A stretch of 64,000 nucleotides of DNA from Rozella allomycis CSF55 (lineage: Eukaryota; Rozellomycota): the NCBI GenBank assembly GCA_000442015.1, contig KE561209.1, positions 322,390 through 386,389 on the forward strand, written 5' to 3'. A program made the position numbers and the translations under genes. This document shows positions 8,478 to 63,964 of the stretch, piece after piece; position 1 is the first letter of the stretch; the number at the start of each line of letters is the position of its first letter. The notes under the pieces are model-generated. The model saw only the letters and a list, made by a program, of their open reading frames with translations, was not told the DNA's origin and ran no database searches.

Positions 8478-11400
8478 ATGAAGACTCATCAACCCCTTCA
8501 ATTTACCTTTGAAAAGTCTAAGCGCTCCATTCTAAGTCAATGGTTAAAAAACGTGCAACGGTACTTTTACCCAGTGATTCAAGACGACAAGCCGCTGAAA
8601 GCGTCGAATGCTGGTTCCATGTTGCAGTTTACGCAGCAGAGTATCAAGCCATTCCATTTCCAAATAAACTACGACTTGAGTTTTCTTGGCGACGTTCTTG
8701 AAGGTGCTGTTGTGAATTTCTGTGTCCAATTAATCGCGAACACTACGCATTCGAATAGCCAAGTGCGATTAGAAGCTGTATTTCTTGTGTACCAGCTGGC
8801 TACTATTCTTGATGCCAAGTTGGTTGAGCCTGCGGATGTGGTCTTGTCGTATTTCCAAAACGATGATTCGAGTATGTGTTTGGGTTGTTGTTGAGTAGAT
8901 CTTGAAGTTGGTGTTCAATTGCTTGTGAAGAAGGTTTCAAAGCCGTTTAGTGTGTTTGCGGTGGCACTTGCGACAGGACTGGAGGGTCTGTATGCGTGTC
9001 CGGAATCGGGAATTCGAGTGACATGTATTACGGCGATGGCTGTTCTTGTACATGAGAACGAAGAAGTTTTTGTGCATGAAGATCAATGTAAGTTTTATTA
9101 ATTTGAATTGTGATAGTTGCGTCGTTGTGGAATATGTATTTTGTGTTGGAAAATTACAAGGACAGTCATGTAGCACCGAAAGATAGGGTTGTTTTGATTA
9201 AAGCTTTGGGGATGCTTTCGCATTTCTATGTTGATAGGAATGTGCATTTTACTGAAAGATTGGTTGAAACATTGATGATGTTGAAGAACAAGACGTTGAG
9301 TGAAATAGCTGCATTGAAGGATGTGTTGAGTGAAATATTTAAGATGCAAAAATTGGATTGTTTTGTTTGCTTTGCTAATATTATTAATCCGCATGATGAG
9401 AATGCTTATGATTTGTTTACATGGGCTATTGAGTGTTACTTTATGGTCGATAGTAAGAAGAGGGAAAAAGCATTGAATGATTTCGTGTTTGGATTGATTA
9501 GTTTGTTTAGAGCGTCTCATGCGCTTGTTAGATATGGTGCGTTTCTTGGGCTTTACACTGCGACAAAGTTGATTAAGGATTTCTTAAAGCAGAATGTTGC
9601 TTATTTACCGTTTGTTATTGTAGGAACTGGCGATAGTGATTATTTAACTTCGTTTCTTTGTCGACAGATATTAGAAACGATGCAGCAGGAGAAGAGTTTA
9701 ATAGTGAGTGTTGACAAGCCAAAGAATTATGATGAGAGGTATGGAGGGAGAATGAGAATTAAGAGTTTTGAAGAATTGAATGAAAAGCAGTTTGAAAAGA
9801 TTATTGAAAGCAGTCCTATTATTTCGATGAATGTTTTACAAAAGATGGCGAGTGGGATGGAATATTTAAGTGATTCTCAGCAAATCAATCAATTGAAGAT
9901 GATTTCATTGTGGTGCAAAAAATTAACTGCGGTATTTTCATTTATTGGATTCAAAATAGTTTGAGCCATTTTTGATGCAATCTATTTTGCCTTTTACTCA
10001 AGTAGAGAAAATGAAAGTTCAGATTTCAGCGTTGCAAGTTATTCAATCTCATCAACAAGCGTTTCAATCATGCAATGAAGAAGAAATAAAATTAGTTTGG
10101 AGTCATTTGATGCCTTTATTGTCTAAAAGTGTTAATTCAGAATTGCTTGTTGAAATATTGAATACAGTTAAGAGTATTCCATTTAATAAACTAACAAATA
10201 CGTATTGCACTCAATTGTTGAAGATTCTTAATAAATTGACATTTCATTTAAATAAAAGTGTTAGAAGAACAGTTTATGAATTAATAAAAGAATTCAAAGG
10301 GTATTGGAAAGATAGAAATCTACATTCGCATGCTTACGTTTCGTTACTTTTATCACTTGGTGAACAAGATAAAGAAAACTTTAATGTTTTAATTGATAGT
10401 TTGAATGATTATATAAAGTTGGATTTAAAGTTTAATAACATGAAAATGATGAGTGATTTAGCTTGGAAAATTTGTGAAAATTCAGAAATAACAAGAATTG
10501 TAGCAGAAGATGAATTAGACATGTGTGATTATATTTATGATTATTTTCTTCCTGATTCAATTGAAAATATATTTTCTAATCATGATAATTACCCAACATT
10601 AAAGTTATTGGGCCAGGCGCCGTTTTGGGTTAGTTTGTTGTTTTATAGACTGAGAGTAGAACCCAAGAGAAAAGAAGATATTGGATTTGCTAGTCTGTTA
10701 GCACCCTTGTTTGGAATTAGTGATCCCGTTTTGAGGGTAAAGGCGAGTGAGTGTTATTTCTTGATTTGCACTGAAAGTGATAAAGTCACGATGAATGTAA
10801 AGATGGTTAATTTGGGATTGTATATGATAAAACATTATTTCATTCAGCATAAGCAATGGTCGTTTCAAGAGTAAAGTAATTTTATTGATTGTAATAGATT
10901 TTCATTTTCATTTTTACGCATGCTGGTTAGATCGAAAGCATTTACTATGCCATTGACGATCTGTTGGGGATTTTTAGAGAATGCAAGAGTTTGTTTAACT
11001 GAAGTTTTTAGCCCTAGTTTAAAGTTAGAAGCTATAAGATTTATAAAGGATTGTTTGATGATTGTTCCATTAGCTATTTCAAATAAATGGAGCGAACTGA
11101 GAGATACTTTTAGGAGCATTATTTTAGATGCAGATGAGATGGTTTCTACTGAAGCTTGTAATGTTTATTCATTGTTGTTTGAAATTGTTCCTGTAAACTT
11201 GATGGAAAGTGCGATTCAATTTATTAAAAATGATCTTATTATAATGGAAACCCCTGTAAAATTGAGTATTGAAGAAAAGAATAGTAAATTTACTAAATGA
11301 AATCAATCTAGTTGTTTTAAAAACTTCATTAAAATGTTTGGGAAGAAATAGTCAGAAATCATATGCCATGATTATAATTCAAATACTGGAAGATTATTTG

Positions 11401-13999
11401 CATGATCAAAGTTCTTCAGTAAGAAATATTGCATTCGAATCTATTATTAATCAAATGTCTTTGATAGAAACCAATTATACATTACTTTGGAGTCTTCTTC
11501 CTTTTGTTTATGATCCAAAGTTGAAAGAATTGTATGAAAGAAAGTTGAAAAATGAAGTAAACTTTCTGAATAGAAATTCATACAAATTTGATCAAAAAGA
11601 TCTTTCTGATAATTTAAGAGATTTGATTTTAAATGAAATTTACAAAATTGAAGGAGATTTTGATCTTGAAATTTCTATAAATGAAACCCCTGTCAATACC
11701 CTTGTTATTAACCCTGGTAATTCCACCGATTCGTCACACTTCAAAATTCCAGAGATTGTGACGCCAACTAATCTATTAAAAGAAATGCATAGATTGGCAA
11801 TGAATTTAAAGCCATTAGAAAAAACAAATGAAGTCTTGTACAAGATGGAGAACCTCAATGTAGTTAAAGGGCCAGTTTTGTTAGCGATGAGTGAATTTGC
11901 GCTTTCACATTTTGAATCTATTGGTAGTTTAGTTTTGGATGTTCTTTTGACGAAAGAAGTTGATGACTATTTCTTGTTGGCTATAAAGAATCTAAATGAA
12001 AATAACCAGAAAAGTATAAAATTTCTAATTTCAAAGATTCTTTCTAGCAATTTCGAAAATGAATTAATTCTTGTGATTTTTCTTTATGAAATTATTAAAA
12101 GAAATATCCCTGAAAAATCTGTAGATTTGTGTTCTAAATATATCCCAATGATTAACAATGCAAGATTTACAATAAAAAAGAGATTGCTTTCTATTTTAGC
12201 TTCTGTTCAAATGTCATTAATTGTTGGAAATGAAGAAATGATTAAAGTTTTAGATTCGTGCCATCATTTTATTGAACAAGTTGAAGAAGAAGAAATAGTT
12301 TTAAAAGTTTATTCAAGTGTTTCTAAAATATTCGATTCAATTGGAAACAAACATCCTCTTTTTACAGGGGTCATAAGTAGAATGAAACAAGTAAAAATCA
12401 TTAATAAATTCAATTTTAAAAGGATATTAAATCTCACATTTTATCCCACAGAAAAAGAGCTTTAGCTGTATTTAAGATTATGAGTCATTTAATGAATAAC
12501 GAAGAAAGGATTTGGGCGAGTTTATTATTCCTAAGTGATCCAGAAGATTCCATCTCAAAGCCAATTGTTAACATTCTTTCAGCCAAAGGAATAATAAAAG
12601 AAACGGTTAATAAAGTTGAAATCGATAGTCTAAATTACAATTACTATTTAAACAACAAATTAATCCAAAAGTAATACATTATTATCATTATCACTCTTGG
12701 TACAACATTAAAGTTAAACTGGTCAAACAAGAAAAGCCATTGTTTGTATTATTTGAAGATTATAGCTTTTCTTTTGAAAACGTCAATTCGACAGGGGTGT
12801 TGAACAATCTAGTTTCTTCAAATTTAACTTTAACTTCAAATTTATTGGATAATCTAATTAATTCCATCGATGAAGCTATTGAAAAGAAGGATAATGATTT
12901 GAACAAGTAATAAGCCTCTATTTGATTAATGAAGGTATCTCTTTCTAATTTCAGTCTTTTCAAACCTTTTAAGTTGTTATCCAGGTATTCAACAATTATA
13001 ACATTAAAAGATCCAATGAATTATGTCGAAAAAATGATAAAAATGGCTGTTCATTGTAGAACTGAATCAAATCAAATTAGACAACACCTATTCCAAGCGA
13101 TGGAAGATTCATTCTTCTTTTTCAATGAATTTGTTGACATCCCAGTGCTGGATGAAGAACAATTCGAAATTCTCGAAGCCTTCAAATCAGAATCAATGAA
13201 CGCCACTAATGATATGGTCAAAAATAACAAAACTGAAAAAATGAATTTAATTATTCAAACTAGAAAAGAATTGGACGAATCAATTGATGACAAGGTACCT
13301 CCATGTAATCAATATTGAACCAGGCTGAAATTTTGAGAAAATTCACTCTTCTGGAAGCAAGGCTAACTAAAGAATTGGGATCGCTATTTGTGTTGAGTCA
13401 AGAAAAAACTATTCTGGCGTTGGAATTCTTTGATCAAAGCATAAACAACGATCACAGGTGCGATTTCATTTTGTTAATTACTACAGGGATATTAGAGAAG
13501 CTGCCGTTGACGCTATTATTTCTATTGCTAAAACTCACAAGGCGAATCCTTCTGTGTGGAAAAAGATTCAATCGTTGCTTGAAAATTACACGGAATTACT
13601 CTATCACCAAAAACAGAATCTTTACTACAAAGTAATTTACAATATTATTGTTCATAATTAGAAAATGGATATTCTCAACCTTGTCTCTAATCTGTTGATT
13701 TATTCTACAAATGAATCTCTTTGTCAAAGGGCCGTGCAATGTATAACCGACCTTTGGAAAGATCCTGATTCTCAAATAAGATCATTTTCCATAACGCAAA
13801 TCAAAGTAACTTTATTTATTTAGCATAACTTTAGAACTTGGGAATAGCAGGTGTTAAACAAGTATTGGACAGCTTTGATGACAAGCAGCCAAACAACCTC
13901 GTAAAAATTTCTGCTACTTTGCTAAACAATCATTCATTTACTGAAAAAGATCAGCTAAATGATCTTCTTCAATGGTACTTTACTAGAAATAAGAAATAA
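8478..13999 (+). CDS. Large alpha-solenoid (HEAT/ARM-like) protein, family not identified
   Basis: The start ATG is at 8478 and the TAA ends at 13999. About 1,700 codons are assembled from at least thirteen exons. Introns I can place include 8872-8898 (24 or 27 nt), 9088-9116 (29), 9932-9959 (28), 12606-12628 (23) and others of 27-32 nt near 10872, 11280, 12390, 13297, 13457, 13630 and 13807, with one of about 48 nt near 12915. Every splice restores a continuous helical protein. The sequence is a chain of amphipathic helix pairs (SSSVRNIAFESIINQMS, SHRKRALAVFKIMSHLM, SLCQRAVQCITDLW), which fits a HEAT-type scaffold. No catalytic motif, signal peptide or membrane segment is visible. Giant HEAT proteins such as focadhesin, or condensin- and adaptor-like scaffolds, are possible relatives, but I cannot choose between them. 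Confidence 0.7.
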
Positions 14000-14062
14000 A
14001 CGTCTTTCTTTTCTTTAGATCTTGTAATCTTGATTTCCCCTTTTTCGGTGGCGCTTTTTCAG

Positions 14063-16351
14063 ATGAAAATTTTTCTTATCGCACTTTCCCTTTTACTCGG
14101 CATAAATGCTAAAATATTCAAGCGCAGTGACCAAGATATCCAAAACAAGAAATTGGGGGTTCTCACTGACGAATATCTAAATGGCATATTTCGGGAAAAT
14201 CATATTGCCACAGTTGGTGCACACACGATCGAGAATAGCGAAAATCTGATAATTCAATATGGTGATCCAGTGAGGGATGATTTTGAGAATGAGATTTCCG
14301 ATATGTTAAAGAGTCTAGTACCCAAATTCGAGAAAGATGCGGATTATTGCAGATTTTTGGCTTCTGTTACTTGGAGGAGCACCACAACATTGAATTCTGA
14401 AGAAGGTCTTCAATATAATATGCTTCTTCATGACTGTCTTTTAAAGCACGACAAAAAATACATGACTAAAGATCCAGACGTAGTTAAGTTTTTGGAAAAT
14501 TTAAAGGTGAATAGCGATTTCAAGTTATGCTTTGAAGAGAAAAAATTAGCAAAACTCACACCTTCAAGGTTTTTAAGTTCTCTTAAAGGTAGGTGTAGTC
14601 AATTTTTTGCCACCAGTGCTGGTAAAGCATTCTACTCAAGATTAGAGGAATTATTAAAACGCAATGTTATTTCCAATTGTGGGGGGTCTTCTGTAGCAGA
14701 TAGCGCAAATCCGCTGAAACATTTGGATTCAGCTCAAACTTGTACTATAGAGCCAAAAGGCAGAATTATTAGAGTACCAATTGAACACCCAGATTTATTA
14801 ACATACAATAAGCCAGATGTTAGAGATATAAAACCAAATGTAACTCCACTATATGAGATTCTTCATTACATTGTCAAGGCGCAGGCAGAAACCGATGATG
14901 GAAATGTTTTTCTTCTCACTATTGGGATCAAACCAGACAACAACGATGCTACTTGGGAATATTACCTTTTGGACGAGGACAAAGCCAGTAAGAGCCTAAA
15001 ATTTAGCAACCTTCAAATGGTATTTCTTATACTTTCCATTATTTAGGGACCTTTGCATTCAATAACTGTTCCTTTAGTGAAACACGCAAGTACCGACGAG
15101 TTGTATGTCTACGATCCTGTATTGCAGCTAACCCCAAAGTATAGACAAGGTCATTTTATGACAGTTGGGAATTACCTTCAAATGATTGAAAAAGGTTTAC
15201 ATAATTCAGTCCCCAAAGATAAATTAGCAGTTTTCATATCAACCTTTGAAAGTACGCTTACTTCTGAATATGTGTGGCATGCTTTAGAAACCGCAATAAT
15301 TAAGGACGTTGCAAATAACTTGAAGAACTATGTACCCTTAGAGCAAAATTTGAAGAGCGATCTAATTCTCCAGACTTCCACGCTTTTCAAGAAAAAGACT
15401 GAAAGACAATGGACTAATGTATGTGACTTAATTCAGTATTACGTGGCCCAACATGCCATTGACCGATCTAATGATTACGCTAATGCCATGCGAAAATATA
15501 GTGCAATCACAGATATCACATTGAAACAAGTTGATATTTTGCAAGGAAAGCAAAATATTACAAAATCACTAAAAAAACTTTCACAGTGGGCTATGAAGGT
15601 CATGGCTTCTCAAACTCATTGTATTATGGAGAACCTTCCAACACAAAAGGAAACTGCTGCCACTTTTGCCGTGGCCTTAAACGATGATATCACGGATAAT
15701 AATTTTTATTTTGGATTTTCAAACGGCTATCGAAGTAAAAATGGTATTTCTCTTTCAGATCGCCAAAAAGTTGTGGATATGTGTTTGAAACAGTATTTTG
15801 TAGCATGGCCCGCTGAGTTTAATAATGATATGTCTTTTATAAGAGAGTTACATGAGCGTAAAGTGAGGCAAGAACCTGCAAAAGCAGCTAATTATGCGAT
15901 TTCTAATTGTGCTGAAGATCAATGCTGTTCATTATCCATCTTTCAGGGTCCTTTGAGAGACGATGCTGATTTTGTTATTAATAAAGATTCATGGCCAAGT
16001 GTGATGCCATTGATCGTATTTTCTTATCGGTACTATAAAACACCTTCTCGATATTTCTTGGCTCCTATTGATAGATGCAGAAACTGTCAGCAATATAGAA
16101 TTTACAAGGACCAGAATTATCCTGATGGGATCGATGTTTCGTTTCAAGGACTAGCTATAACAGACTGGATATTTGAAACAATGAGGCAAGAATTTAACCG
16201 ACTTGATATTTTTGGTATACCAAATGGTGTGAGAAGACATGCCACAAATCCATTACCTATTGATAAAATGAAGGAGCTAAAGACTTTTCTAAAGACAAAT
16301 TATGACGCATTAAGAGTTCACGAAGAAACTAAAATTTACGCAACGACTTAA
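14063..16351 (+). CDS. Secreted protein of unknown family (about 750 residues)
   Basis: The start at 14063 is chosen because it opens a strong signal peptide (MKIFLIALSLLLGINA). In-frame codons upstream lack one. A single 27-nt intron at 15020-15046 joins two long exons. The mature protein has scattered cysteines, including a CSL/CCSL cluster near VISNCAEDQCCSLS and a CRNCQQY motif late in exon 2, which suits an exported, disulfide-bonded protein. I see no catalytic signature and cannot name a domain. It lies 63 bp downstream of the solenoid gene and converges with another secreted protein at 16405-17664. The pair may be secretory factors of a parasite, but function is unknown. Confidence 0.7.
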
Positions 16352-17915: not shown

Positions 17916-19019
17916 TCATTCTTGAGACAACTTTGCTTCCACACCACATATGATCTTATTCACTTCATAGTCTAAAGCTCTAGATAGAATATCAGAAAAG
18001 GAGGAAATGCTAAGTTTTTCATCAAGTACATTAGTGATCTCGTTTTGGAAAATCTGTTCGATTGGAAGAGTTGTAATAGGAACTGGCACCTCGGGTTTAT
18101 TTAGGATCATTTTATCTTCATTGTCTTTAGTTGACATGAGACCAACCGTGGATTTTTGTGTTTTCAAAGTTCCTTTAACTTTTCATTAGTTATTGATGCA
18201 ATTACCGGGCAGCTGTGGAGTCAAACTCGGCGGTTTGGCAGTTTCCAAATTTGTCGCCGCATCCTCTGGTCTTACTTTTTTGTTGTTTTCTTTAGCTTTT
18301 GAATTCTTGTTTAAATCCTTTTCTTTCGGGGTGTTTGGTCTTGAATTCTTCTTAAGGGTCCCATTTTCATTCTTTGCCTCATTCGCTTTTGCTTGAGCTA
18401 TCTTCCAATCGTTATATTCCGCTAAGCGCATAGAAGATTTTAGGGAAGGAAATGTAAAAGGCGACGATTTTATGTCTACATTGGTTATAGTCAAATTTGT
18501 GCTTTCAGTGAACACAAATTTAATGAGTTTAATAACCTTTAGCACTCTATACTCTATCTACTTTATATTTACGTGTTTGATATAGATTTCATTATGACCT
18601 CTGTGTCTTTCCGGTCGAGTAAAACGTAATTCTTTTCAATCGACTTTTTCACTTGGTAAATTAGAACATCTGGTATTTGCTTGTCAAATATATTATCTGA
18701 TTTAGCTTTGAATAGATACTTTAGTTAGATTACAGATTAAATTTATGAGTAGATTGGCGACCATGTCATAGATTTTATCAATACAAGATTTATCGACCCC
18801 TCCTTTCCACATATCATTCAATAGCCCTTCCAATAAATCCTGTAGTATGTTTTGTTTTGCGAATAGCATTTCATCATTTGGCATGTCAAAGAAATATCCG
18901 TTTCTACTTTGAATTCCTTTGGCATCTTTTAAAAATATATCCAATCCTTTGTTTTTAAGGTCTTCTTTAATTTCCTGACGAGTCACTTGGTGATCATCAA
19001 GATTTTTGAAAACAGTCAT
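17916..19019 (-). CDS. Conserved-looking helical protein, unknown
   Basis: The ATG at 19019 begins MTVFKNLDDHQVTRQEIKE. Three introns of 28, 26 and 27 nt (near 18700, 18555 and 18175) restore a continuous frame ending with TGA at 17916. The N-terminal half is helical. The middle carries a low-complexity charged stretch (KKNSRPNTPKEKDLNK, KAKENNKKVRPEDAA) and the C-terminus ends ALDYEVNKIICGVEAKL. I recognise no domain; a cytoskeletal or ciliary adaptor is conceivable but unsupported. It is divergent from the kinase at 19150, with about 130 bp between starts. Confidence 0.6.
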
Positions 19020-19149: not shown

Positions 19150-21086
19150 ATGGAGGATACGGCTGAATCATTTTCGATGAACGCAGAGGATTATGAGCTT
19201 GGAAAGACAATTGGTATTATATAAATTAGTATTTAAATAGGCTTTGGATCATCAGGGATTGTTTTTACCGCATTATATACGCCCTTAAAGAAACCTGTCG
19301 CAGTGAAAATGATAGATTTGGATAGTTTTGAAAGAAACCAAATCGATACATTACGAGTATTTAATGTTTTTGTAGATTAATTCAGAAAGAAATTCAAGTA
19401 ATGTCACTGTGTAAGCACCCTAATGTCTTGCCTGTGTATGCAAGCTTTTTAAACTCGAGAAAGTTGTGGATTGTTACACCACTAATGCAAATAGGTATTG
19501 TTTTTTATCTTTGATTAAATATAGGTTCATGTCTTGATGTTTTGAAAAATCATTATCCTGATGGTTTGGAAGAAGGGATTATAGCGTGTATACTGTATCA
19601 AGCTTTGCAAGGACTGGACTATCTTCATAAAAATAATCACATACATAGAGATTTTAAGGCGGGAAACTTGTTAATGGACAGATATGGAACAGTCTATTTG
19701 GCAGACTTTGGAGTGAGTTCTTCCCTAATGGAAGACTTTGAAAGAAAAGGGATACGCAAAACATTTGTTGGAACTCCATGTTGGATGGCTCCTGAAGTGA
19801 TGGAGATGACTAAAGGCTATGACACTAAAGCTGATATTTGGTCTGTTGGTATTACTGCATTGGAATTGGCTTATGGTTTTGCCCCCTTTGCTAAATTCCC
19901 GCCGATGAAAGTAAATAGCTTAATTTTTCTTTATAAAGGTTATTTATTTAACCCTTAACAATCAAGCCCCGACTCTTGATAAAAACCACGCGAACAGAAA
20001 GTATTCGAAGGCTTTTAAAGAAATGATTGATTGTTGTTTGCAGAAGGATCCTACTAAAAGGTTTTTCAATTGACTTAAATTTATGTAGACCAACGTGCGA
20101 AGTTTTATTGAAGCATTCATTCTTTAAGCAAATAAAGAAGTCATCTGGATTAGAAAAGTTTATAGAAGGGCTTTCAACAGTAGAAGAAAGAGCTAAAAAA
20201 GGTAAACAGAGCAAAAAGATTGAATTCAGATTTTAACCAAACCGTTTATGATACAACGGATGCTGAAGATAGCCATTCGTGGGATTTCGATAGTGTAAAT
20301 GGCGGCGATGAAGAATCTCAATTGGATGAATCAAAAAGTAGCAATGAAGGAAAGTCCAATGATTTTAACAAAAAGAGCAGATTCATTCTAGAATCTTCTA
20401 ATGCTGATACCCCGACAAAAGAAAATGTTTCAGAAATCAAAAAAGGGAGATTTTCTGTAATTGAAAAGCCTTTATTGCCCTCTGAAATCCCAAAAGCCAA
20501 TTTGCCAAAAGTTGAATCGTCAGAATCTATTAAGCCAATTCTACAGAGGCAACCTTCAACAGACAGCAGTGTATTTTCTTCTGGAAAGCGTACATTTGAA
20601 GTAAGAACTGTCGCAACTGAAGAGAAATCTATCTTATCGCCTTCAATATCACAAAGTCATTCCACTTCCACACAAAAGCCGAATGAACAAACTAGAGGAA
20701 GGTTTCAAGTTCTTTCAATTGATCCTCCAACAGATACAAATGGTAAAAAAATAATCAATTTCTTATGATTAGAAAATGGAAACGTTACATCTACGGCTGG
20801 AAACACACCAATTGAAATGCTTCCATCACCGGTTGTCAATACTTCACTAAAAAGCAAAGTCAGTTTTAACGAATCCATAGAAAAAATAATCCCTTTACCC
20901 GCCACAGATAAACAAAAACCGTAATTATTAATTTTATTAATAATTAGATCGGAAGAGAAATCAATGCTTGATGGGCTTTCATTAATATCGAATCTTGAAA
21001 AATATATTAAAAGTCTACTGAAAGAAAATGAAGATTTGAAAAGAGAAAATGAAGCACTTAAGCGATCAATCAATAGAGTTGAATAA
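19150..21086 (+). CDS. STE20/GCK-VI protein kinase, OSR1/SPAK-like
   Basis: Serine/threonine kinase of the family that relays WNK signals in other eukaryotes. After removal of a 27-nt intron the glycine loop reads IGFGSSGIV, followed by the catalytic lysine in VAVK (residue 44), the HRDFKAGN loop (Asp139), ADFG (Asp157) and [10 protein letters not shown]. The activation segment [15 protein letters not shown] and the PPMKVIYLTL stretch match OSR1/SPAK closely. Eight introns of 27-30 nt can be placed. The catalytic loop has Phe in place of the usual Val/Ile (HRDF). Beyond the kinase there is an acidic SWDFD stretch, a Ser-rich linker and a terminal coiled coil ([16 protein letters not shown]). 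I do not see the C-terminal CCT domain that binds RFxV motifs in animal SPAK. Convergent with the TLC gene, with only 12 bp between stop codons. Confidence 0.85.
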
Positions 21087-26600: not shown

Positions 26601-27364
26601 TGAAACACACTCATCTNCACACTCTTCTTCTCCAATAAAATCTAAAAAGAGAAAAAGCAAAATAAATTTAGATTCTTCATTCAATTCAAGCGAACCCAAA
26701 CAAACTAAGAAAGTTTTCATCCTCTCATCAATAGAACACAAACTACGCCAAAAATTTACAAAAATTATAGAAAAACTTGGCGGCAAAATAATCGATGCTC
26801 CTCATTGGCATCCCTCATGCACCCATCTAGTAGCGTCAAATTTAATGCGAACAGAAAAATTCTTATCAGCCTGCGCTGTAGGCGCTTGGATCCTGCATCC
26901 AGATTATTTCTCTGCATGCCAATCACAAAATGCATTTGTTGATGAAGAAAAGTATGAATGGAGCGCTATTTGGAGTCCCAAAATTTCATCGCTTGTTAAT
27001 GCGCCTAAATATTGTCGGCTGATGAACAAGTCTAGAAAAGGTAATATAAATTATTCATAGAAATTAAAGTTTATGAGAATTGGAATGTTTTGCTGTTGAT
27101 TGATGAAAAGAGACTGGGTGGGTTTAAAAGATTAATTGAATTGGGCGGCGGGTATGTGTCTACTAGTGAAGATTCGTCATCAGTAAGTATTTTTAGTTTG
27201 GAAAATAGTTTACTCATGTAATTACGGATACAAACTCTGCATCGGCACTTCGAATTGATGCGTTCAAGTCTAGATATCCAAATGCTGTCATTGCTAAAAC
27301 TGATTACATTTCTGAATTTTTGATTAATGGAGATTCTTTTGATCCCTCTTACTTTATACTATAA
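23617..27364 (+). CDS. TOPBP1: TopBP1/Dpb11-like multi-BRCT replication and checkpoint scaffold
   Basis: Nuclear scaffold that binds phosphorylated replication and checkpoint proteins. The ATG at 23617 and introns of 27, 26 and 28 nt assemble a first BRCT (NSRVTHLIASASCSAKYRF, GIPIVTCEWLDAVV). A second follows at once (CTHLVTCTTEGLKYQFA, VDRRWVSE), then a third (VTHVINKTN, NVKWLVES), a fourth, and a fifth (CSILICEKPKG, CVKFDWILKI). A sixth has the order ELSNLALKCGAKFLWSF, VTHFIHQGN, IVSPWWLFNSAQSC, very like TopBP1 BRCT6. Two C-terminal BRCTs follow (CTHLVASNLMRTEK; FTHVITDTN). Introns of 26-29 nt lie near 24713, 25890, 27041 and 27182. The n bases at 24940, 26353 and 26617 sit beside short near-identical overlaps and look like unmerged contig ends that keep frame when collapsed. 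Divergent from the acyltransferase, with 40 bp between starts. Confidence 0.85.
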
Positions 27365-41689: not shown

Positions 41690-41830
41690 NTACGTTGTTT
41701 CAATTCAATGTGGTAACTAAATATGTGCATCCGATTAAGTTTCAGTTAAACATTTAAATAAAATGAAATTTAATAGTTAAAAATGGTATGAGGTAATTAT
41801 AAAATAGAGTGCTTTATTGAAACTATGGTA

Positions 41831-43648: not shown

Positions 43649-43650
43649 GC

Positions 43651-52347: not shown

Positions 52348-53425
52348 CTATTTTCCCTTTGCGCTTTGCAGCATTTTGTCGACATGTGAATATTCAATAT
52401 TATATTTCTTAATGGCAGCCTATGAAATTAAAGGGCAGAAACTTACTTTCCAAATGTCGAAAGTGAAGCCAAAAACAAACTGTCTGTTATTTTGTTCCTC
52501 CAATTCTTCTAAATTCTGTTCATTGATGTAAACCATTAGTTCTTTGTTTTCTTCCTTTAAAGTCACTCTTTTCTCTTTCACCAGGAATGAAAAAAAGAAT
52601 AAAAGTTCAACTGATCTCCCAAACGAATTGGGATCGATCAAAAACTTGAAAAAATTTATTGGATTCTCTTGCTCCAGACATCTAAACAGAGAGAAAACCA
52701 TTTTGGTCGTTTCTGTTGTACTATTTACTAGGACGTCTTCCCTTGATAACTCTCTGGGTCTTTCAACTTCTGCTTTTAACTCGTTATTATTTCTTTTTCT
52801 TTCAATCTTCCTTTTTTCCTTTTTCTCTATTTCAAATGACCCAAGCCTGTTTATTATGAATCTAAATGTTACAATGAATTAAAGGTAAAAACACCACAAG
52901 TGGCATTGAGAGCCATTGCACCAACTGCCCTCCAATCGATTCTACCATGCGGTCGTAATTCTGGCTGTCGTGAAAATAAGTTTTTAACTTGATCTCTAAA
53001 GGTACCTAAATCTAACGGATGACGACCAAGTTGTAACTTTGACACTTTTTCAGCACTCAAATCGGCAGATATCATAAGCAACCTCGCATCTAATACTGCT
53101 TCGGATGTTCCGCGGACTATTTTTAATAAATGATTGAAATACTGTGCTGGGATAATTGGTTTGCCCGCTCAACAACTTCACTTAGTAGCTATTATCAAAT
53201 ATGCAACACTTTTACATTCGAATCAGCCTTCAATGCCTCGGCTTTATTTTCTTCTAGAATTTTTGCCATGTTTCGGTACTGGTTTCTTACAAATCTCTTT
53301 ACACCTATGGACTGATTAGGATCGTACAACTGAGTTTCCTGTATTTTTTGTTTTTTGGTTTGGCTATTTAAGATGTTATTTCGTTCTCTTTCCGAATAGT
53401 TTTCCTCTTCTTCCATCTGTTGCAT
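52348..53425 (-). CDS. NSE4: NSE4, kleisin subunit of the SMC5/6 complex
   Basis: Bridges the SMC5 and SMC6 heads in DNA repair. The ATG at 53425 opens an acidic N-terminus. The N-terminal kleisin helices follow (VRNQYRNMAKILEENKAE, LLSEVVERANQLSQHS, TSEAVLDARLLMISADLS). The C-terminal winged-helix block has NPINFFKFLIDPNSFGRS, VELLFFFSFLVKEKRV and NEQNLEE, matching Nse4. Four introns of 26-28 nt give a continuous frame ending with TAG at 52348. About 320 residues is the usual size. Convergent with SLA2, about 195 bp between stops. Confidence 0.9.
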
Positions 53426-53540: not shown

Positions 53541-53929
53541 TTATTGTTGAATGGTAACCTCAACATCAACTCCAGTTTCAATTTTGAATGATGTGATTTG
53601 TCTGACAATTTCAGTTGGGCTTTCCAAATCAATAACACGCTTGTGAATGCGCATTTCATAACGGTCCCAAGTCTTGGATCCTTCACCATTTGGTGTTTTT
53701 CTTGTAGTAATACGTAGAGTTTTAGTTGGCATGCGAACTGGTCCTTTGACTGGAAGTTCTTTTTCTTTTGCACGTTGAATTAACTCGGAGCAAACTAAAT
53801 TTACAAAAAAAATCACAAAATACCTTTCTCAACTTTGCTTACATCACGAGAAGTAAGGGTGACACGAATACGATGGATTTTTAATGGAGCAGATTCTTCT
53901 TGTCCAGCTTTAGCAACTTTGGAAGCCAT
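53541..53929 (-). CDS. RPS20: Small-subunit ribosomal protein uS10 (RPS20)
   Basis: The ATG at 53929 ([20 protein letters not shown]) and a 29-nt intron at 53795-53823 give a complete uS10. Key segments are [49 protein letters not shown] and [11 protein letters not shown] at the C-terminus. 119 residues, normal for eukaryotes. The gene has a more GC-balanced codon use than its neighbours, as expected for high expression. Confidence 0.95.
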
Positions 53930-54485: not shown

Positions 54486-57315
54486 ATGACTGTAAAGGAA
54501 GCCTCGTTATTTCCTAAAACCCAGAGAAGACATAATATAGATGTTGATAACGTGACAATATTGGATAATTTTGTAATATTTTTTAGTAAATCACAAAGGG
54601 AACACTGTCTAATCTGTTTGATATTGCAAAGAGGGGGCCGTTTGTTGGGAATGGAATAGTATCGGCAGAAAACAAGGCCAAATATCCAAATCAATGTGGG
54701 GCTAAATTTGAGTTTAAAATATACCAGTATTATATTACGTACTACGCGGAGACACCTTTGAAACCTGATGTATGGTTGAGAGGCGATCATTGTTATTTTA
54801 GGATTATGGTAAGCGGTACATAGTTTAGAGATTAGAATCCTTCATTTAAATATAAAGCTACGTATGAAGAATGCTGGAAGATGTTTCAATTTACTTCATT
54901 GTCTTTTGAATATTTGAAGGAAAACAAGGGCAAGTCTTTTGATTGGAAGAATTATTTTGAGACGGTAAGTCATTTTTGGAATGTTTAAAAGCTTATTATA
55001 AAGTTAGAGTTTAAAAGCCAAGAGTCTTTGATTGATTTTTTGTTTGAAGTTTCATCATTTTTTATGAATCAGTTGAGTCAAATGGCAGAGTATGAAAGAG
55101 ACTGTGGCGATCATATTGTTGTAAAATTGATGCAAAAAAGTCTTCAAACAAAATCCAATCAATTTAAGGGCTTGTTGGATTTAGAGATTGACCTCCCCCT
55201 TAAGCCCCTTGTAGCGTACACGAAAGCATTAAAGCCACAATGTATACCTCCATTGATAACGATTGTATTTTAAATGAGTTTTCGTAACAAAGATTAATGA
55301 TTTGAATTATCGTAATGGTTATTTCAAGTGCCCTGCATGCTATCAATCGTTTGACACTAGTGTAGATGGTGTTATTGATAATATTCTTTTACCGCATATA
55401 CAACAGCACATGAAATCACTTTGCGGCGATTTGAAAACGGAAGAGGAGTGGCTTGGTATCTACAATTCTTCGGCGGCAAAAATAAAGAAGCATGAAAAAT
55501 GTGACAAGGAGCATTATTTTTCACGATCTTTTCCCAGCAGAAATGTGATCAAGTCAAACTTTGGGGTAATGTGATGTTTTTTTGATGTTAGTTAATCAAA
55601 GGTGTGAAAGAAGAAAAGGTTTGTTTTATAGAGCCAGAAGTGGAGGAGATTAAAGTGAAAGAAGAGGTTTATTCAGAATTTGATGATTTTGTGGATATTC
55701 CCCTGATGGAGCCTTTAAATAATGTTGAAAATAGGGTATTTTATTTTGATTTAAAAGATAGCCTGTACGTGAGACCAGGGTTAATAATCAACCTTTGAAG
55801 AAGAAAAGGGCCAAGAGCGACAAGCCTGAATCGTCTAAAATAAATAATGCGGATTTAAAGCAAGAAAATGAAGACTATAGATTAGAGATAGAAATTCCAT
55901 CGATGAATTTGGAAATAAGTGAAATGACCCTTGATGAAGAGAGCGAAGAAGAAAAAGTTTTTAAAAAACGCAGAATTAGAAATAGAAAAGACAAAAGACG
56001 AAGAAACAGAAAAGAAAAAGAATTTCTTCCAGAGATTTTGACGTTTGCGAGAACCCTTGCGAATGATCTTTTGACTTTTTTGAAAACATTTGGCAATGAC
56101 AATCGAAGTGTTCCATTTGAAGGAAGCAAAGAAAAGGAGCAAATTTGTTTTAATGTTATGTGTTATTTCGGTCTGGGGATTGTAGAAGCAAAGGAGGTGT
56201 ATGACACTGTATTGAAATCTGATTATGAATTGATTGAAGAGTTTATAACGCTCGCAGAAGATTGTGGAATATTGGAAGAGATTTCTTTATTTTGTTTGAG
56301 ACCAAAAAGAGTAAAAACTATTTCCGAAATTTCCAATAAATTTTCTTTGGATGAATTGGCAGAAAAGATTGGAAGAAGCAACAAAAATAATGTAGAAATG
56401 AAAACAAGACAATCTAGAAATAAAAGAAATAAACAAATTAATCAAAATAGCACGAAGAGTGAAAATGTTTCAACTGAAGATTTAAGGAAGGCTATTGAGA
56501 TTTATAAGAAGAAATTTAACGTTGAGATTTCTATTGAAGATCTTTTTGAAATTTTAGAAAATTTAAACGAAGCAGAAAAAGAAGCAGAAGTAGAAGTAGA
56601 AGAAGTAAAGGGAAAGAGCTTTAAAGTAAATGAAGAAAACTTTGATGTAAATGAAAACTTTAAAGCAAATGGAGAAATCGTTGAAGAGATGCGAGAAAAC
56701 TTTAAAGACAAGAGGGAAGAAGAAGAAATACCAAAGGAAGAGAGGAGAGAAATCTTTGAAACAAAGGCAGAAGAAAGAGAAGACGAAGATTTAGAATTGG
56801 AAGAAACAAAAATTGAAGATGAAAAAAATGATCTGGAAATTGAAATCTTTGATGAAAATAAAAAAATAGATCTACATTTGGCATTGGATGATTTCATTAT
56901 TGAAGACGATCCAGAAGATCTTTTAATTGAAGACCCTGAACCTCTAAGGGACCCTGAACCTCAACTTTTCTTAGAACCTTCGAGGGACCCTGAACCTCAA
57001 ATATCTACAAGGTCTAAGCCTCCACTATTAATAGAAACATCAAAATCCAAAGTAGAAAATTTGATTGACGTTGTGGAAATAGAAGCGGACAGTTTTGCAT
57101 CAATTTTGTCAGAATATGAAAATTCAAACGCCCCTCTAAGAAATGTTTCAAATCAAAATTCAAATTCTTTTTGGAGTTGCAAAACATGCAATAAAATGCG
57201 TCAAGGTGCAAAATGTTTATTTTGTGGAAGTTTATGGGAATGTCCCAAATGTCTTTTAAATCACTCGATGAATTCTTCATGTCCGAAAAATCAGAAAATA
57301 ATTTACATTGAATAA
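54486..57315 (+). CDS. Chromatin-type zinc-finger protein with an RFTS-like N-terminus
   Basis: The ATG at 54486 and introns of 26, 27, about 39, 28, 26 and 32 nt link what look like several separate frames into one protein of about 870 residues. The N-terminal region reads VTILDNFGTLSNLFDIA, PFVGNGIV, KPDVWLRGDHCYFRIM and NPSFKYKATYEECW. This resembles the replication-foci-targeting (RFTS) domain of DNMT1-type proteins, but no methyltransferase motifs follow. Next come a possible C2H2-type finger (FKCPACYQSF ... HIQQHM), a basic segment, a helical region (ICFNVMCYFGLGIVEAKEV) and a long acidic, Glu/Lys-rich stretch. A C-terminal zinc ribbon (SCKTCNKMRQGAKCLFC, CPKCLLNH) ends it. The RFTS resemblance is my weakest element; zinc-binding and nuclear character are likelier. 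Confidence 0.55.
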
Positions 57316-57382: not shown

Positions 57383-60341
57383 TTAATTCCACCATTGGAA
57401 ATCTTTCGATGATGGCAACGGGAGAATTCTAACAGGCTCATCAAAATCTATCAAGGAAATTTCATTTGTGATTTTTCCAATTTCACTCTTTTCAGAATTC
57501 ATGCTTCTTCTTAATTCATTTCGAAGTCTTTCTTTCTTTTCCTTGTCTATCAATAAAACCTTAATTAAAAATGTCGACTTTACAGGCTTATGATCCGATA
57601 GTCTCAATTCTGCTCTTGAATACCCTTGTTGCACAATCTTTATTAAATACATCAATCCTCTCTTACATTCTGCCCCTTAAATAAAATGCGATCAGTCCAC
57701 GCTGGAATTCTCTGCTTCTCGCTAGTGTCGTATTCATCAGTCCCATTGTCATATTTGTACGTTGGATTAAAATTGATTTCTCCTTCAATAAACCCTTTAA
57801 ATGCATTTCCCTGTTTTAATTGATTATTTAACTTTCATCATGTCAAACATTGCTTACCTGGTCCTGGCGAAATAGTTCACTCAAATTTCCTTTTGATATC
57901 AAGTCTTTGGTTTGCCAGATTCCTAAATCAATTCGATAATTAAAATCTCCCAGCCAAATCACATTGTCGTGCACTTCAATTTTCTTTCCATGCTTAAACA
58001 CCAAGCCATCGGATATCGTCATGTAATCTCTATTCCTTTCCTCCACATTTCCATGTCCAGCTGCCAAATGCGCACAAATAAAACAAAACGACGAATCATA
58101 ATAATCAAATCTAATGCCAATGCCACCTTTATTCCCTGCCATCCCCTTTAACCCGGTCTATCATCTTATTCATACACACTTACTTTCTTTATTCCCACCT
58201 CTACATTTCGAAGATTTTTTATTATTGATAACTTTGCAAAAATACACAATGACGCGCCAACTAGCTGTCCGGATGTTACAAGGGTATATTTTTCACCATC
58301 CGCATTCAGTGACTTTTGTATTTGTCTTTCCCACAAAAGTCGCTTATCTGGATCGGTCATCATGATCTTTCTTTGAAACATCCTTGAATCTTACCTGCGC
58401 TGGAGTCAATTCCACAATCTCCTGAAATCCAATCACATACAAATCAGGATGGCTTTCTAAAACAGCAATCAAAAAATAGACTACCAGATGATAACCAGGG
58501 TGAAAGGCTTTCATGATTTATTGAAGGGCTCTTTCCATTCACATTCCACGTAGCAACAAAGACCGAAAGTGGAAAGTATGTTGAATACTCATTAATGCGA
58601 TTGTCCAATTCAATTCTAATCGAATTCAAAATAGGATTAAAAATAAAAACCGACGAATTTGGAATATTTCCTAAAAGTATATCAATGGTAGTCTGCTTAG
58701 ATTTATCAGTAAAATTGTTAACGTAAAATCGTTGTGCTGATTTTTTAGCGTCATCCATGAGTCCTGTAACTTATTTTAAAAACTCATTACCGGCAATGGT
58801 GCGCTTTCCAGTCCGCGTAAATCCAGACTTTAGGGCACCCGTCCCAGTGTATATTCGACTCAACTCATCGCCATTGTCCGCCCAAATGTCATTGAAGACT
58901 GGATGATCACTAAACTTGGCAGGAATTAACTTTAAACTCAAAAAATTATCTAAAACATATTTAACAATTGCCGTTTGCACAACATTTGTCCTTTTTAAAA
59001 ATACAGACAGGGGTACCTGTCCAAACAATCCAAGCAATTCACTCTCATAACGCCCCTTTGCATCATTAAAAGTTCATTTGTCTTCAAATCAATCACAGAG
59101 TACATTTGCTGCTGCAAAGCTACTTCTATCATTGTTAGCAAAACGCTGAGTCGATCGTAGCTTGTTCCTTTCATGTGATAGTGAAAATCAAACGCCGTTC
59201 TAGTTATCGGCATTCCACAGTTTTCTGTTTGAATTCTATATGCATTTCCCAACAATTCTTCTGCGTTCCCATCTCTCTGGGACAAAAGATCAATGATATG
59301 CACATTATCGTATTGATTTATTAAGTCTTCGAAATGACGATCAAAAGCGGGCTGTGTTGCCGCTATCGATCTGGTTATCTGAATTTTATGACCGCCAACC
59401 TGCAACCCTTGTTGTTCCCAGAATACAAAAATTAGAGGCAAAGTTATACTTTACCTGGCACTGATCCTCTTAAAATCACAAAAGAAAACAATTGGTCTGG
59501 TTGATGCTGGAAAACAACCTCCGTCTCCACAAAATTCGCAACATTCCCATCATCGTCAATCCCTCGTACATTGTACCTAGTCCCAGCTCTTTTGCTACTA
59601 AGCCTAGAAAAAACGGCTAAAAATGATTTTTCTCCGTTTATTTTTAAATCACAAACTTCAACAAATCCTTGAATGGCCAATACAAACAATGCACTTGAAT
59701 CTATATATCTTTTCTCTTCTTCCGCCAATTGGGCTCTAAATTTTATTATTTGTTTTAAAATAGATTTGTTCCACACCTTCATTGTAGTTTATTTTTTGTA
59801 TTACGAATCTATCGTCAAATGTTTCGAATAGGTGTCCCTGGGACCTGGTTCTGTTGCAAGAATTTAACGTGAGGTCAAATGAAGGCGAGAAATAAAATGA
59901 TCCCGAACTCATGTATTTTATCAAATCTTGGCAGGGATGAATAATCTTTTGTTCTTCATTTTGAATGGAATCAAAAGACACCATATCATATTTAGTGGAA
60001 TTAATCGAAATACATTCAACAGCCGTGATTCTAAATAATGGGTGTGACAAAAATGATCCAACTCTTTCTACGCTCTGTATACTGATTAAAAAATCATCTA
60101 GCAATAACTTTCATCCACATTATTCACCTTCATTAATTTTAACCATCCCCAGAATTCCGAAACATACTTTTGAGCCTGTAGGTACCTTTATGTTGTCTGT
60201 CACACAAAGCTCGGCATTTACACATTGTATATTTGTTTTATATGGTTTTATAGTTAGCAAAAATGGATTCGATGGGTCAGTACAATGAATAGACACTACT
60301 CTCTGTTTACCACCTTCAATTGTAATGTAGAAATTGGACAT
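57383..60341 (-). CDS. Synaptojanin-type phosphoinositide phosphatase (Sac1 plus 5-phosphatase)
   Basis: Dual-domain enzyme that removes phosphates from PI(4,5)P2 and related lipids during endocytosis. The ATG is at 60341. The Sac domain includes RFVWNKSILKQIIKFR after a 28-nt intron, RGSVPVFWEQQG, and the catalytic loop VNCLDCLDRTNVVQ, assembled across a 26-nt intron. After a DDAKKSAQRFYVNNF linker comes the 5-phosphatase: FVATWNVNGKSP, HPDLYVIGFQEIVEL, AGNKGGIGIRF, AHLAAGHGNVEERN, WLGDFNYRI, IPAWTDRILF and LSDHKPV. The C-terminus is short, with no long proline-rich tail. One splice site (59426-59454) appears to be GT-TG. Together with SLA2 8 kb away it fits an actin-dependent endocytic machinery. 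Closest yeast counterparts are INP51/52/53. Confidence 0.93.
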
Positions 60342-61067: not shown

Positions 61068-63241
61068 CTATGCTAAATACTTGTAAAATTGCCTATTTAA
61101 GATATTCAAAGTTTGATACTTGTTTTCTTCATCTCTTTCAATGAATTCTTTTTCAATTAGATTTTCAATCCGCTTTTTAATAACGGAAGGCTCTGGGTGG
61201 AACCTTGATGAAAGGATTTTAATCACTGAAGAGACAAGAATTGTGTGTTCAACTTTACGTCTTGATTTCATTATCCTCACTATGGCTGCATCAATCGTGA
61301 CGTTAAGGATACATACATATTATATGATAGAACTAATAAACAACAAAAAGGATATTGATATCTTCGATCTTCCTCGACTTGTTCAATTGAATGTTCTGCG
61401 TTGGGCACCTCAGAGTTCGATGGTTTTATTTGCAGTAAAGGAACCTTAAACTTGAAAGCTTTGTGTTTAAAAGAATTGTTAAAAGTAAAAATATCAGAAT
61501 TCCTTAAAAAATTGTCGCCGGGGGTCTTTTGTAGAATCTTAAATCTTCCCAGTGCTAGGGAAAGTATATGCCGTTCCATTTCATGAAGAGTTATATTCAA
61601 GGATTTTGAAATTTGATCAGCATTTAATGTTTCCGCCTCCTGAAATAACAAAAGTATAAACATTTGGATTGTAGAGACGTTGACTTCATGTCGACTCTCT
61701 AAAAAGTTTATTACAAGATCCGCTTGACCCTTTCAAGTGAATTTATGAAATTTACTAAATTAAATTGCCAGTTTAGTCTTCTGCCATTGTGTTTGAGCAA
61801 GTATGATTTCTCAAATACATCCAACTGTTCTTTAAGCTTTAAAGGTAAATTAATCGAGGATTTAGTAGATTTGAGAGGCCAGAAGCTCGTTGTCAATATG
61901 ATTGGTTGTAGCGACTTTTCTTTGTAATCTGCGGATAAGGCTGCGTCATTGATCATTCCCTCCATTTTCTGGGTGTATTGAAGGCCACATTCACTCTTTT
62001 TTAATTGGTATAAATGATAGATACTTTTAATCTCACCACGAAACTTTGAATTAACGAAATATCTTTTCTCTGAATCAGCTGCTTTGCCAATAGTTTCCGA
62101 AACAAAAGATCAAAAACATCCTTATCGGGTATAAAACGAAAAATAATAATTAATTTATCAAAAATATTTTCGAATTCTTCTATATTTTCTCTGAATATTT
62201 TGTCTAGATACGAAATCAGGTGTGAACATGCATTAGACTCATTCTTTATGCAGTCTCCAAACGCCTATCGATAAAACAGTGCTAAAGTACCTGATTCATA
62301 CATTTCCATATATCTTTATTGTTTACAAAGCACTCTATTTGAACAAATGATAGATACTCATAAAAATTTATCATTTCATTCATCCAATTACTTTTTTCCG
62401 CTGTAAAATTAACAATAAATGTTCGAACGTAACTATTTAGAACCTCCATACAGCCACAAGGGTTGAATAAATTGTAAAACAACGTCAGGCATTCATAGTC
62501 TTTGTGTGCTAGCCTTTTCGAAATTCCTCCATTCAACTCGCATATCTTAGAGGAGGGTTGTTTGATAAAGATATCGTAAACTAAATCAATAAAGTTCTTT
62601 TGCGAAATTTCAGGAAAAAACATGACAATCCTTTCTTGTTCCCCTTCAAGTCGTGCTTTAACTTTCGCCAAGTACATTTTAGTATCATCGAATTTCATCA
62701 AAATTTCCTGTTCTTGAACAAAATAATCTCTTGTTTTCTCCATGAAATAGTCGTAGTCTATGGACTCCAACTCGTTCATCATTGTAAATATTTTAGACAA
62801 TGTGTCACGCTCAATTATATTCCCATTTCTTTCTTTATTTATTTCTTCAATTAAAGATCCATTTATTTTTGTTAATTGATTGCTAATGACAGTCTCCTTG
62901 AAGCAATCCAAGGCTAATTCCATGGTCTCCCTTATTCTCCTTTGTCTACAATACCCATTATTCATGTAAAGGCACACATCCGATACCATAGACACTGATA
63001 GCTTAAAGTTTTGCCATTCCTTTGACAAGTGTGCCAAATACTGATATCCTTGAAAAATTTCAATCCTCGCACCGATTTCTGAACACTTCAACATGAAGTA
63101 TTCTTCTATCTTTCCATAAAATACTTCTGCTTCTGACATTAAGCATAAGTTATAGCAATATCGATATAATTTTTCAAACGAAAGTTGAGATGTTTTTTGC
63201 CCAAATATTTTTTCAAAGGAGCTTACCAAACAATCCATCAT
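61068..63241 (-). CDS. Cullin scaffold of a cullin-RING ubiquitin ligase
   Basis: The N-terminal cullin repeats start with SFEKLYRYCYNLCL (ATG at 63241). The KINGSLIEEINKERNGNIIE segment is typical of the CUL3/CUL4 group. Downstream exons contain MEGMINDAALS, FWPLKS, FEKSYLLKHNGRRLNWQF and the winged-helix part LNADQISKSLNITLHEMER. The C-terminal neddylation block has IVRIMKSRRKVEH, RFHPEPSVIKKRIENLIEK and ends FYKYLA after a 27-nt intron. The lysine of IVRIMKSR is the expected NEDD8 site. The intron just before IVRIMK has no clean GT-AG solution that keeps TIDAAIVRIMK. The paralogue (CUL1, 3 or 4) is not settled; substrate adaptors such as F-box proteins exist in the window. Confidence 0.88.
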
Positions 63242-63591: not shown

Positions 63592-63964
63592 ATGTCGCCA
63601 CCTGATTTGATACCTACCCATAAAGCTATCGCAGATAAATTCGCGTAATGTAGAAAAAGATTACTTATTCAGTGGTATAAATAGTTTAACCTTTTACAAA
63701 CGAGACGATTACGAAGCACTTCGCTTTGAGTGCCTGCGGGAAATGGACTGCGATTTGAAACCGCATAGCCAAGAATTTCGTGAGCTAGATAAAAAAGTTA
63801 AAGGTAACTTGCTAACGAAACCTCTTTCAGGTCTCGTAAGTCCACGGAAGATTGCAAATCAGACTTCCGAGTCGATTTGGGCTAGAGCGGATGCTGATGT
63901 GAGAGCAGTCGTTGATAAAGACGTTTTTGATTCTATTGCAGTCGCGGATATGGATACCAAATAA
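63592..63964 (+). CDS. Small conserved-looking protein, unknown
   Basis: The ATG at 63592, a 28-nt intron at 63645-63672 and TAA at 63964 give 114 residues (MSPPDLIPTHKAIADKFAG ... NSLTFYKRDDYEALRFECL). No domain is recognised, and there is no signal peptide or membrane segment. The protein is charged and predicted helical. Because the window ends 36 bp later, a further exon in another frame cannot be excluded. Confidence 0.5.

Follow-up and report, generated by a model that had tools for sequence, protein, structure and literature searches.

INTRODUCTION

Nucleomorph introns are 18 to 21 nucleotides (nt) long. Narrow populations of ultra-short introns have also been described in ciliates and mikrocytids. 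Here, we analyzed the introns in a 64,000-nt stretch of DNA from Rozella allomycis CSF55 (Rozellomycota), contig KE561209.1, positions 322,390 to 386,389 of the forward strand (G000:C191:322390-386389; hereafter, the window), along with further sequence of the same genome. Rozella is a new member of the known ultra-short-intron genomes. Our reading, to which we give a probability of roughly 0.8, is that these would be U2-type introns squeezed to the floor of the spliceosome, with the branch at position +23 (counted from the 5′ end of the intron) and the 3′ splice site at the first AG that ends at or after +26.

The described systems resemble Rozella in some respects and differ from it in others. 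Paramecium (mode, ~25 nt) and Nyctotherus (21 to 29 nt) likewise have A+T-rich introns with a narrow length range and GT-AG ends (PMC5014332, PMC2633312, PMC12862383). Unlike the Paramecium type as described in these reports, Rozella introns drop off sharply below 26 nt and show no shortage of 27-nt members, whose length is a multiple of three (3n). The motif search reported for Nyctotherus gave no branch signal, whereas a clear adenine stands at +23 in Rozella. Stentor coeruleus, with introns of 15 to 16 nt, is described as having canonical U1 and U2 pairing elements and a branch adenosine given by position with little motif, and in this it is like Rozella. However, the Stentor adenosine lies at position 10 of 15-nt introns and position 11 of 16-nt introns and is therefore anchored to the 3′ end, while that of Rozella is anchored to the 5′ end over lengths of 26 to 32 nt (PMC9505925). 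Microsporidia, with which Rozella is placed, have short introns as well (22 to 76 nt in Encephalitozoon cuniculi), but E. cuniculi is reported to have 37 introns with a strict 5′ splice site and a CTAAY-type motif (PMC3629993, PMC2483917), in contrast to the many introns without a strict motif in Rozella. Mikrocytids are, like Rozella, parasites with numerous introns of a very narrow size range (16 to 17 nt); by the published account, their introns share highly conserved sequences, and those of Rozella do not (PMC10245619).

A survey in Molecular Biology and Evolution (PMC8476143) gives an intron density of 2.5 introns/kb for Rozella, which is mentioned four times in its main text, each time without an intron length. 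The main text of Quandt 2017 does not contain the word “intron.” In the open-access literature searched, we saw neither the length of Rozella introns nor a 5′-anchored branch point or ruler described, and the length may well already be in print.

RESULTS

Introns of 26 to 32 nt with a hard lower edge

The analyzed DNA comprised 288 kb, made up of the window, L001-L008, and a further 20 stretches of 10 kb each from this genome. Whole-genome counts were taken over the assembly of 9.97 Mb in 213 contigs. For gene prediction, we wrote a Viterbi gene finder whose sole training material was long, unbroken open reading frames (ORFs), from which it learned coding composition. In the first run, all intron lengths from 12 to 200 nt had equal cost, and the splice model was limited to GT..AG. 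This run called 76 introns of 26 to 29 nt, compared to 2 to 16 when GT..AG was replaced by each of 16 other boundary dinucleotide pairs as decoys. The peak stayed when splice-site weights were learned and the length prior was kept flat, with 28, 40, 16, and 17 introns of 26, 27, 28, and 29 nt, respectively, among 198. Re-estimating the length distribution from this flat start (the trained run) gave 285 introns, with 237 at 26 to 32 nt: 71, 69, 41, 38, 9, 7, and 2 introns from 26 to 32 nt in order, and one each at 17, 22, and 25 nt. This corresponds to ~1.8 introns of 26 to 32 nt per coding kb. G+C content was 34.7% in predicted exons and 25.7% in the short introns. Plotting the spacing of GT..AG pairs over the unprocessed window sequence gave histograms too noisy to be informative.

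Across the whole genome, we then counted segments of given lengths that begin with GTAAGT and end in TAG, which involves no gene finder. The counts were 40 (24 nt), 26 (25 nt), 121 (26 nt), 101 (28 nt), 86 (29 nt), and 32 (35 nt), a nearly 5-fold increase across the one nucleotide from 25 to 26. The lower length edge at 26 nt is hard. Genome-wide, intron lengths are unimodal and narrowly spread below ~35 nt. An earlier reading of the window from its letters (the sequence-only reading) had placed the intron mode at 26 to 29 nt and named a distribution centered well above 35 nt as evidence against itself; the mode was right, and no such distribution was seen. There was no deficit of 3n lengths, with 27-nt introns at 69 of 285 next to 71 of 26 nt. 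An in-frame stop was present in 62 of 66 27-nt introns. The method can hardly detect a 27-nt intron that has no stop, so these stops are no sign of selection.

Conserved proteins place the same segments outside the coding sequence. Continuous conserved proteins were obtained by removing the short segments from the synaptojanin-like gene, the Pfam-matched genes, and the gene for uS10. Single Pfam matches cross 15 junctions in five proteins: five in Pkinase, three in Cullin, two in eIF3g, four in ANTH, and one in Memo. In the rest of the genome, we measured gaps between neighboring kinase profile matches, keeping pairs with a profile overlap of −1 to 12 and setting aside the 11 outside it. The implied gap was 23 to 32 nt in 22 of 28 kinase-domain exon pairs (26 of 39 with the set-aside pairs). 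That the segments are an artifact, with sequencing frameshifts or internal eliminated sequence (IES)-like elements bridged by the gene finder using GT..AG, is hardly credible to us. The assembly is indeed a draft with many single N bases, but an artifact predicts neither the absence of a peak with decoy boundaries nor the leap of the raw genome counts at 26 nt. The junctions also lie inside conserved domains, and deposited Rozella proteins drop mostly the same segments (9 of 10 and 8 of 11 junctions in two genes described below).

The trained run placed 64 of 74 calls in the window at 26 to 32 nt. Each of the 10 window calls longer than 32 nt is accounted for as follows.

Window 1955-2072: spans assembly N.
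Window 6579-6782: spans assembly N.
Window 24922-25041: spans assembly N.
Window 41367-41421: spans assembly N.
Window 41654-41919: spans assembly N.
Window 13975-14238: gene merge.
Window 34596-34985: gene merge.
Window 46294-46429: frame break in retroelement-like ORFs.
Window 59426-59454: candidate 29-nt intron ending in TTG that replaces a longer call.
Window 12671-12699: candidate 29-nt intron ending in TTG that replaces a longer call.

A final run on the window used the length prior learned before, capped introns at 60 nt, and admitted TG ends; it gave 73 of 78 calls at 26 to 32 nt. Four of the other five include assembly N, and the last, of 17 nt, lies within an ORF with ankyrin repeats. 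Window introns of 47, 78, and 95 nt were rejected in favor of candidate 29-nt GT-TTG introns or of two short introns flanking a short exon; the 78-nt call at 12907-12984 was replaced by introns of 28 nt (12907-12934) and 26 nt (12985-13010) with a short exon between them. The few introns of about 35 to 79 nt that had been claimed from sequence alone are thus unsupported in the window, where long calls come down to N bases, gene merges, the retroelement, and TTG candidates.

An adenine at +23 is anchored to the 5′ end

With the introns aligned from their 5′ ends, A was present at +23 in 175 of the 237 introns of 26 to 32 nt (74%), over a background of 28 to 38% (66 to 90 of 237) at positions 8 to 22. 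By length, the frequency was 85% (26 nt), 65% (27 nt), 71% (28 nt), and 68% (29 nt), then 8/9, 5/7, and 2/2 at 30, 31, and 32 nt. The final window models have A at +23 in 56 of 73 introns. Introns called from coding composition alone have it in 58 of 86, so the adenine is not a product of splice-site weights. It was also present in the raw genome matches. Among the 100 matches listed for each of two lengths, 63 (26 nt) and 59 (28 nt) had it, as did 49 of the 86 matches of 29 nt (binomial P versus positions 8 to 22, 4.5e-11, 1.1e-8, and 3.0e-5, in this order).

The adenine could instead be part of 3′ splice-site recognition (e.g., by U2AF35), with the true branch at varying positions further toward the 5′ end. 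When an intron is 26 or 27 nt long, +23 coincides with −4 or −5, respectively; A at −4 reaches 63% across all introns and is kept in 47 of the 97 longer ones, as would suit this explanation. The introns of at least 28 nt separate the two ends. Here, 70 of 97 have A at +23 (P = 2e-14), while A is found at −4 in 47, at −5 in 33, and at −6 in 47, with 29 of the last being the +23 adenine of 28-nt introns. Because +23 remains high while −4, −5, and −6 are lower, the adenine is anchored to the 5′ end and does not shift with the 3′ end. A 3′-recognition role is also at odds with the AGs before +24 that go unused in many introns (see below), and we consider it distinctly unlikely.

Little sequence surrounds the adenine. 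A strict CTAAY motif is not a feature of these introns, with CTAAC at 2 sites and CTAAT at 6 sites in the 237 introns, and a k-mer search for a branch motif found TGTTT and GATTG over-represented but no placed motif. Beyond GTAA, the +23 A, and AG, few intron positions are conserved. We infer that the +23 A is the branch point and that it would be selected by distance and not by sequence.

The first AG at or after +26 is the 3′ splice site

The 5′ consensus is approximately AAG/GTAA, with GTA in 99% of introns, A at +4 in 83%, and a weak G at +5 (22%). Among the 237 introns, 3′ ends are TAG (132), AAG (77), CAG (19), and GAG (9). Of the 237 introns, 236 end at the first AG whose G lies at +26 or beyond; so do 85 of the 86 introns in the set without splice-site weights. 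At 28 to 32 nt, the rule held in 96 of 97 introns versus 1,730 of 2,261 (76.5%) random GT..AG pairs of the same lengths in predicted exons. An AG lies between +9 and +23 in 98 of 237 introns and is unused. AGs ending at +24 are equally unused and occur as often as expected (12 observed, 11.8 expected); those ending at +25 number 7, with 10.4 expected. These data fit scanning from the +23 adenosine, with an AG that overlaps or abuts that adenosine being unusable.

We also admitted further acceptor dinucleotides singly. TG served as acceptor six times, always as TTG and always in introns of 26 to 29 nt, with A at +23 in five of the six. Other extra acceptors gave 0 to 4 calls of 26 to 32 nt, including four for TT (three with +23 A) and four for TC (two with +23 A). 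Since TT and TC give four each compared to six for TG, the TTG excess is small. TTG ends as a real class are weakly supported by these counts, and perhaps ~2% of introns end in TTG. Beyond the window intron at 59426-59454, the candidate GT-TTG introns of 26 to 29 nt are the following.

Window 12671-12699.
L001 2336-2364.
L012 6311-6337.
L020 7157-7182.
L023 7112-7138.

The candidate at 59426-59454 lies in a synaptojanin-like gene. The deposited R. allomycis CSF55 protein is 99% identical to our spliced protein and agrees at 9 of 10 junctions. It lacks VFWEQQ (59408-59454), as if 47 nt had been removed, and the 29-nt TTG-ended intron keeps these residues. The motif RGS(V/I)P-FWEQ (here RGSVPVFWEQ) is present in 118 of 119 listed homologs besides the Rozella record, the exception being P0051. 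A missing or wrong assembly base at 59426-59454 is possible. Gene models that assume longer introns or AG-only ends can fail in Rozella, as seems to have happened with this deposited protein.

Canonical spliceosomal RNAs

Searches of the genome for small nuclear RNAs (snRNAs) gave one match each for U2 (139 bits), U6 (88.5 bits), and U1 (69.0 bits). Their pairing elements are intact: GUAGUA in U2, ACAGAGA in U6, and ACUUACCUG in U1. The U1 candidate (L030 1501-1659) scores just under the Rfam cut-off of 69.5 bits, and its 5′ end is canonical. As the checked RNA elements are canonical, they give no sign of a changed spliceosome. A 5′ splice site complementary to U1, GT..AG boundaries, and intact snRNA pairing elements are all as in U2-type introns. 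Together with the hard edge at 26 nt, they agree with the earlier description of spliceosomal introns that are ultra-short and close to the smallest size physically possible.

We doubt that this lineage has a modified spliceosome or an altered apparatus for intron definition. In favor of such a change, a 5′ splice site-to-branch distance of 22 nt is about half of the 46 nt reported for human constructs as the shortest donor-to-branch length that is productive (PMC11291888), the +5 G is weak, and a RED_N profile search of the genome gave no match in a search that had no positive control. On the other side are the canonical U1, U2, and U6 pairing elements and the presence of an SF1-HH match in the genome. 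The sequence-only reading had raised a modified intron-definition mechanism, for which the RNA side offers no support given the intact U1 5′ end, U2 GUAGUA, and U6 ACAGAGA. It had also proposed comparing U1, U2, and the branch-binding proteins. U1 and U2 pairing was canonical and SF1 was found, with the protein side of this comparison limited to SF1 and RED.

A distance-based model of splicing

From these sequence patterns, splicing would proceed in cells at the sites described. U1 would pair with the AAG/GTAA 5′ splice site, and the branch adenosine would be nearly fixed at +23, 22 nt from the 5′ splice site, with almost no surrounding motif. The 3′ splice site would be the first AG with its G at +26 or later, reached by scanning from the branch. 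The pattern may be caused by a branch helix that is kept as near to the 5′ splice site as possible. If the branch distance is fixed, the range of 26 to 32 nt would mostly be the branch-to-AG distance (3 to 9 nt). This suggests that the splicing machinery counts off a constant distance and takes the first usable site beyond it. Since hundreds of introns lie at the floor, the ruler is directly readable: if the branch reading is true, it is 22 nt to the branch adenosine and then at least 3 nt to the intron end. This gives a concrete, testable model for minimal-distance splicing in a fungus near Microsporidia, whose introns are few and also short. We lean slightly toward a more specific formulation, a metric, motif-poor splice code on canonical snRNAs that combines the 22-nt branch ruler, AGs before +26 that are ignored, use of the next AG, and perhaps 2% TTG ends.

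Several observations weigh against this model. No A is present at +23 in 62 of 237 introns. In 27-nt introns, +24 (43 of 69) is nearly as A rich as +23 (45 of 69), so the ruler has a play of ~1 nt or a −4 preference acts too. The 29-nt class of the coding-only set has A at +23 in just 5 of 12. There is no clear YTNAY around +23: among the 175 introns with the adenine, T occurs at +21 in 86, +20 in 86, +11 in 85, and +15 in 85. The T at +20 and +21 does not stand out from that at +11 and +15. The motif thus lends little evidence, and the argument depends on position. A branch point 3 nt from the intron end would be close. Of the trained-run calls, 48 of 285 fall outside 26 to 32 nt; the accounting above covers the window's 10 and not the 38 elsewhere (17 to 400 nt). 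Six of the 28 kinase exon gaps also lie outside 23 to 32 nt (22, 34, 52, 53, 177, and 249 nt), as do 7 of the 11 set-aside pairs (all gaps, 25, 26, 26, 28, 37, 52, 54, 55, 73, 78, and 82 nt). The gaps of 52 and 53 nt could each hold two introns. Finally, a deposited HEAT-repeat protein of another Rozella assembly (P0121) lacks two in-frame stretches (15 and 22 residues) where we call no intron.

Two of these observations bear a further description. The kinase gaps of ~177 and ~249 nt (G000:C132:110061-110231 and G000:C99:6595-6834) clash with the short-intron rule; each may hold a coding insert, more than one intron, or an intron of greater length. The gaps in P0121 correspond to residues 635-649 and 679-700 of our predicted HEAT-repeat protein and are either extra introns or errors of the P0121 model.

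As for how the introns became so short, deletion bias in a compact genome may have shortened them to the floor with no selection on length. The sharp edge at 26 nt and the fast decay above it are as such a neutral origin would have them, and the same argument has been made for mikrocytids (PMC10245619). Alone, however, it gives no account of an A fixed at +23, and we hold its chances to be even. It is an account of origin and not of mechanism, and it can be compatible with the ruler. Selection on intron size, as suggested from the sequence alone, is less apt as a description of the pattern than a fixed distance from 5′ splice site to branch plus the first AG, with introns piled at the floor.

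Genes and junctions in the window

The genes with their introns are given by window position below.

1138-2299, minus strand: RhoGEF/SH3-like gene (named by eye); introns 2274-2299 (26 nt), 1257-1282 (26 nt), and 1138-1166 (29 nt), all with A at +23.
8619-13999, plus strand: HEAT-repeat gene with 13 introns of 26 to 32 nt; 8872-8898, 9088-9116, 9932-9959, 10871-10897, 11284-11311, 12391-12422, 12671-12699 (candidate GT-TTG), 12907-12934, 12985-13010, 13295-13323, 13458-13486, 13632-13661, and 13806-13834.
14063-16351, plus strand: gene with one intron, 15020-15046 (27 nt).
17916-19019, minus strand: gene; introns 18706-18733, 18547-18572, and 18179-18205.
19150-21086, plus strand: OSR1/SPAK-like kinase with eight introns of 27 to 30 nt, all with A at +23; 19214-19240, 19357-19385, 19495-19524, 19911-19938, 20061-20088, 20202-20229, 20743-20772, and 20921-20947.
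23617-26353, plus strand: BRCT-repeat gene; introns 23668-23694, 23803-23828, 23907-23934, 24712-24740, and 25887-25915; a further 54-nt call spans N.
27022-27364, plus strand: weak gene call (score 16), perhaps a continuation of the BRCT gene; introns 27041-27069 and 27183-27208.
27819-30339, plus strand: gene; introns 27930-27955, 28170-28196, 28258-28285, and 28375-28402.
31592-31944, plus strand: weak gene call (score 15); intron 31788-31816.
34090-34875, plus strand: eIF3g gene; introns 34249-34275, 34381-34408, and 34596-34624; the eIF3g match (6-126) crosses two of the three junctions.
34946-36766, plus strand: two genes; introns 35060-35088 and 35451-35477, and 36181-36206 in a Memo-like gene with an incomplete start.
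38576-41585, minus strand: gene; introns 41270-41296 and 38672-38701; a further 55-nt call spans N.
49625-52153, plus strand: Sla2/HIP1-like gene (ANTH, I/LWEQ); introns 49862-49887, 50100-50125, 50311-50336, 50477-50502, 51214-51241, and 51396-51422; ANTH (12-268) crosses four junctions.
52348-53075, minus strand: weak gene call (score 17); introns 52847-52872 and 52420-52446.
53795-53823, minus strand: 29-nt intron of the gene for ribosomal protein uS10 (RPS20), with A at +23; a gap-free uS10 alignment runs over the junction (2.6e-50).
54486-57315, plus strand: gene; introns 54573-54598, 54809-54835, 54965-54991, 55265-55292, 55566-55591, and 55736-55761.
57383-60341, minus strand: synaptojanin-like SAC plus 5-phosphatase gene with 10 introns of 26 to 30 nt; 60098-60127, 59777-59804, 59426-59454 (GT-TTG), 58991-59016, 58764-58790, 58457-58484, 58367-58394, 58158-58183, 57832-57857, and 57638-57666.
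61280-63139, minus strand: cullin gene; introns 62265-62290, 61996-62024, and 61730-61755, all with A at +23; Cullin (5-530) crosses all three junctions.

All 10 junctions of the synaptojanin-like protein lie inside matches to solved structures, and its intron at 58991-59016 interrupts the catalytic motif CLDCLDR/TN. In the OSR1/SPAK-like kinase, Pkinase (15-278) crosses five junctions, and the protein matches the OSR1 structure 2vwi with an E value of 1.5e-90. The uS10 intron was found by homology and missed by the final gene finder. P0121 matches 8 of the 11 covered junctions of the HEAT-repeat gene and differs at 12671, 12907, and 12985; the deposited model has a different intron at 12671-12699.

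Of six example introns put forward by the sequence-only reading, five stood: 9088-9116, 9932-9959, 15020-15046, 34249-34275 (inside the eIF3g Pfam match), and 53795-53823 (uS10). The sixth, a 23-nt intron at 12606-12628, was rejected, as the frame is open throughout. The frame is instead broken downstream of this segment, most likely at 12671-12699 (29 nt, TTG end).

Other features were noted by eye. Ty3/gypsy-like retroelement ORFs (capsid-like, zinc knuckle, and reverse transcriptase) with a broken frame occupy window 44838-47268. An ORF at 5126-6517 has a tandem repeat of ~13 residues (TVTANAKKDEKRP), and an ankyrin-type repeat array of similar units of ~31 to 33 residues follows at 6790-7814. 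Many single N bases are spread across the window, and near such bases lie a short direct repeat (~2450-2500 and 2722-2771) and an inverted repeat (~3680-3850).

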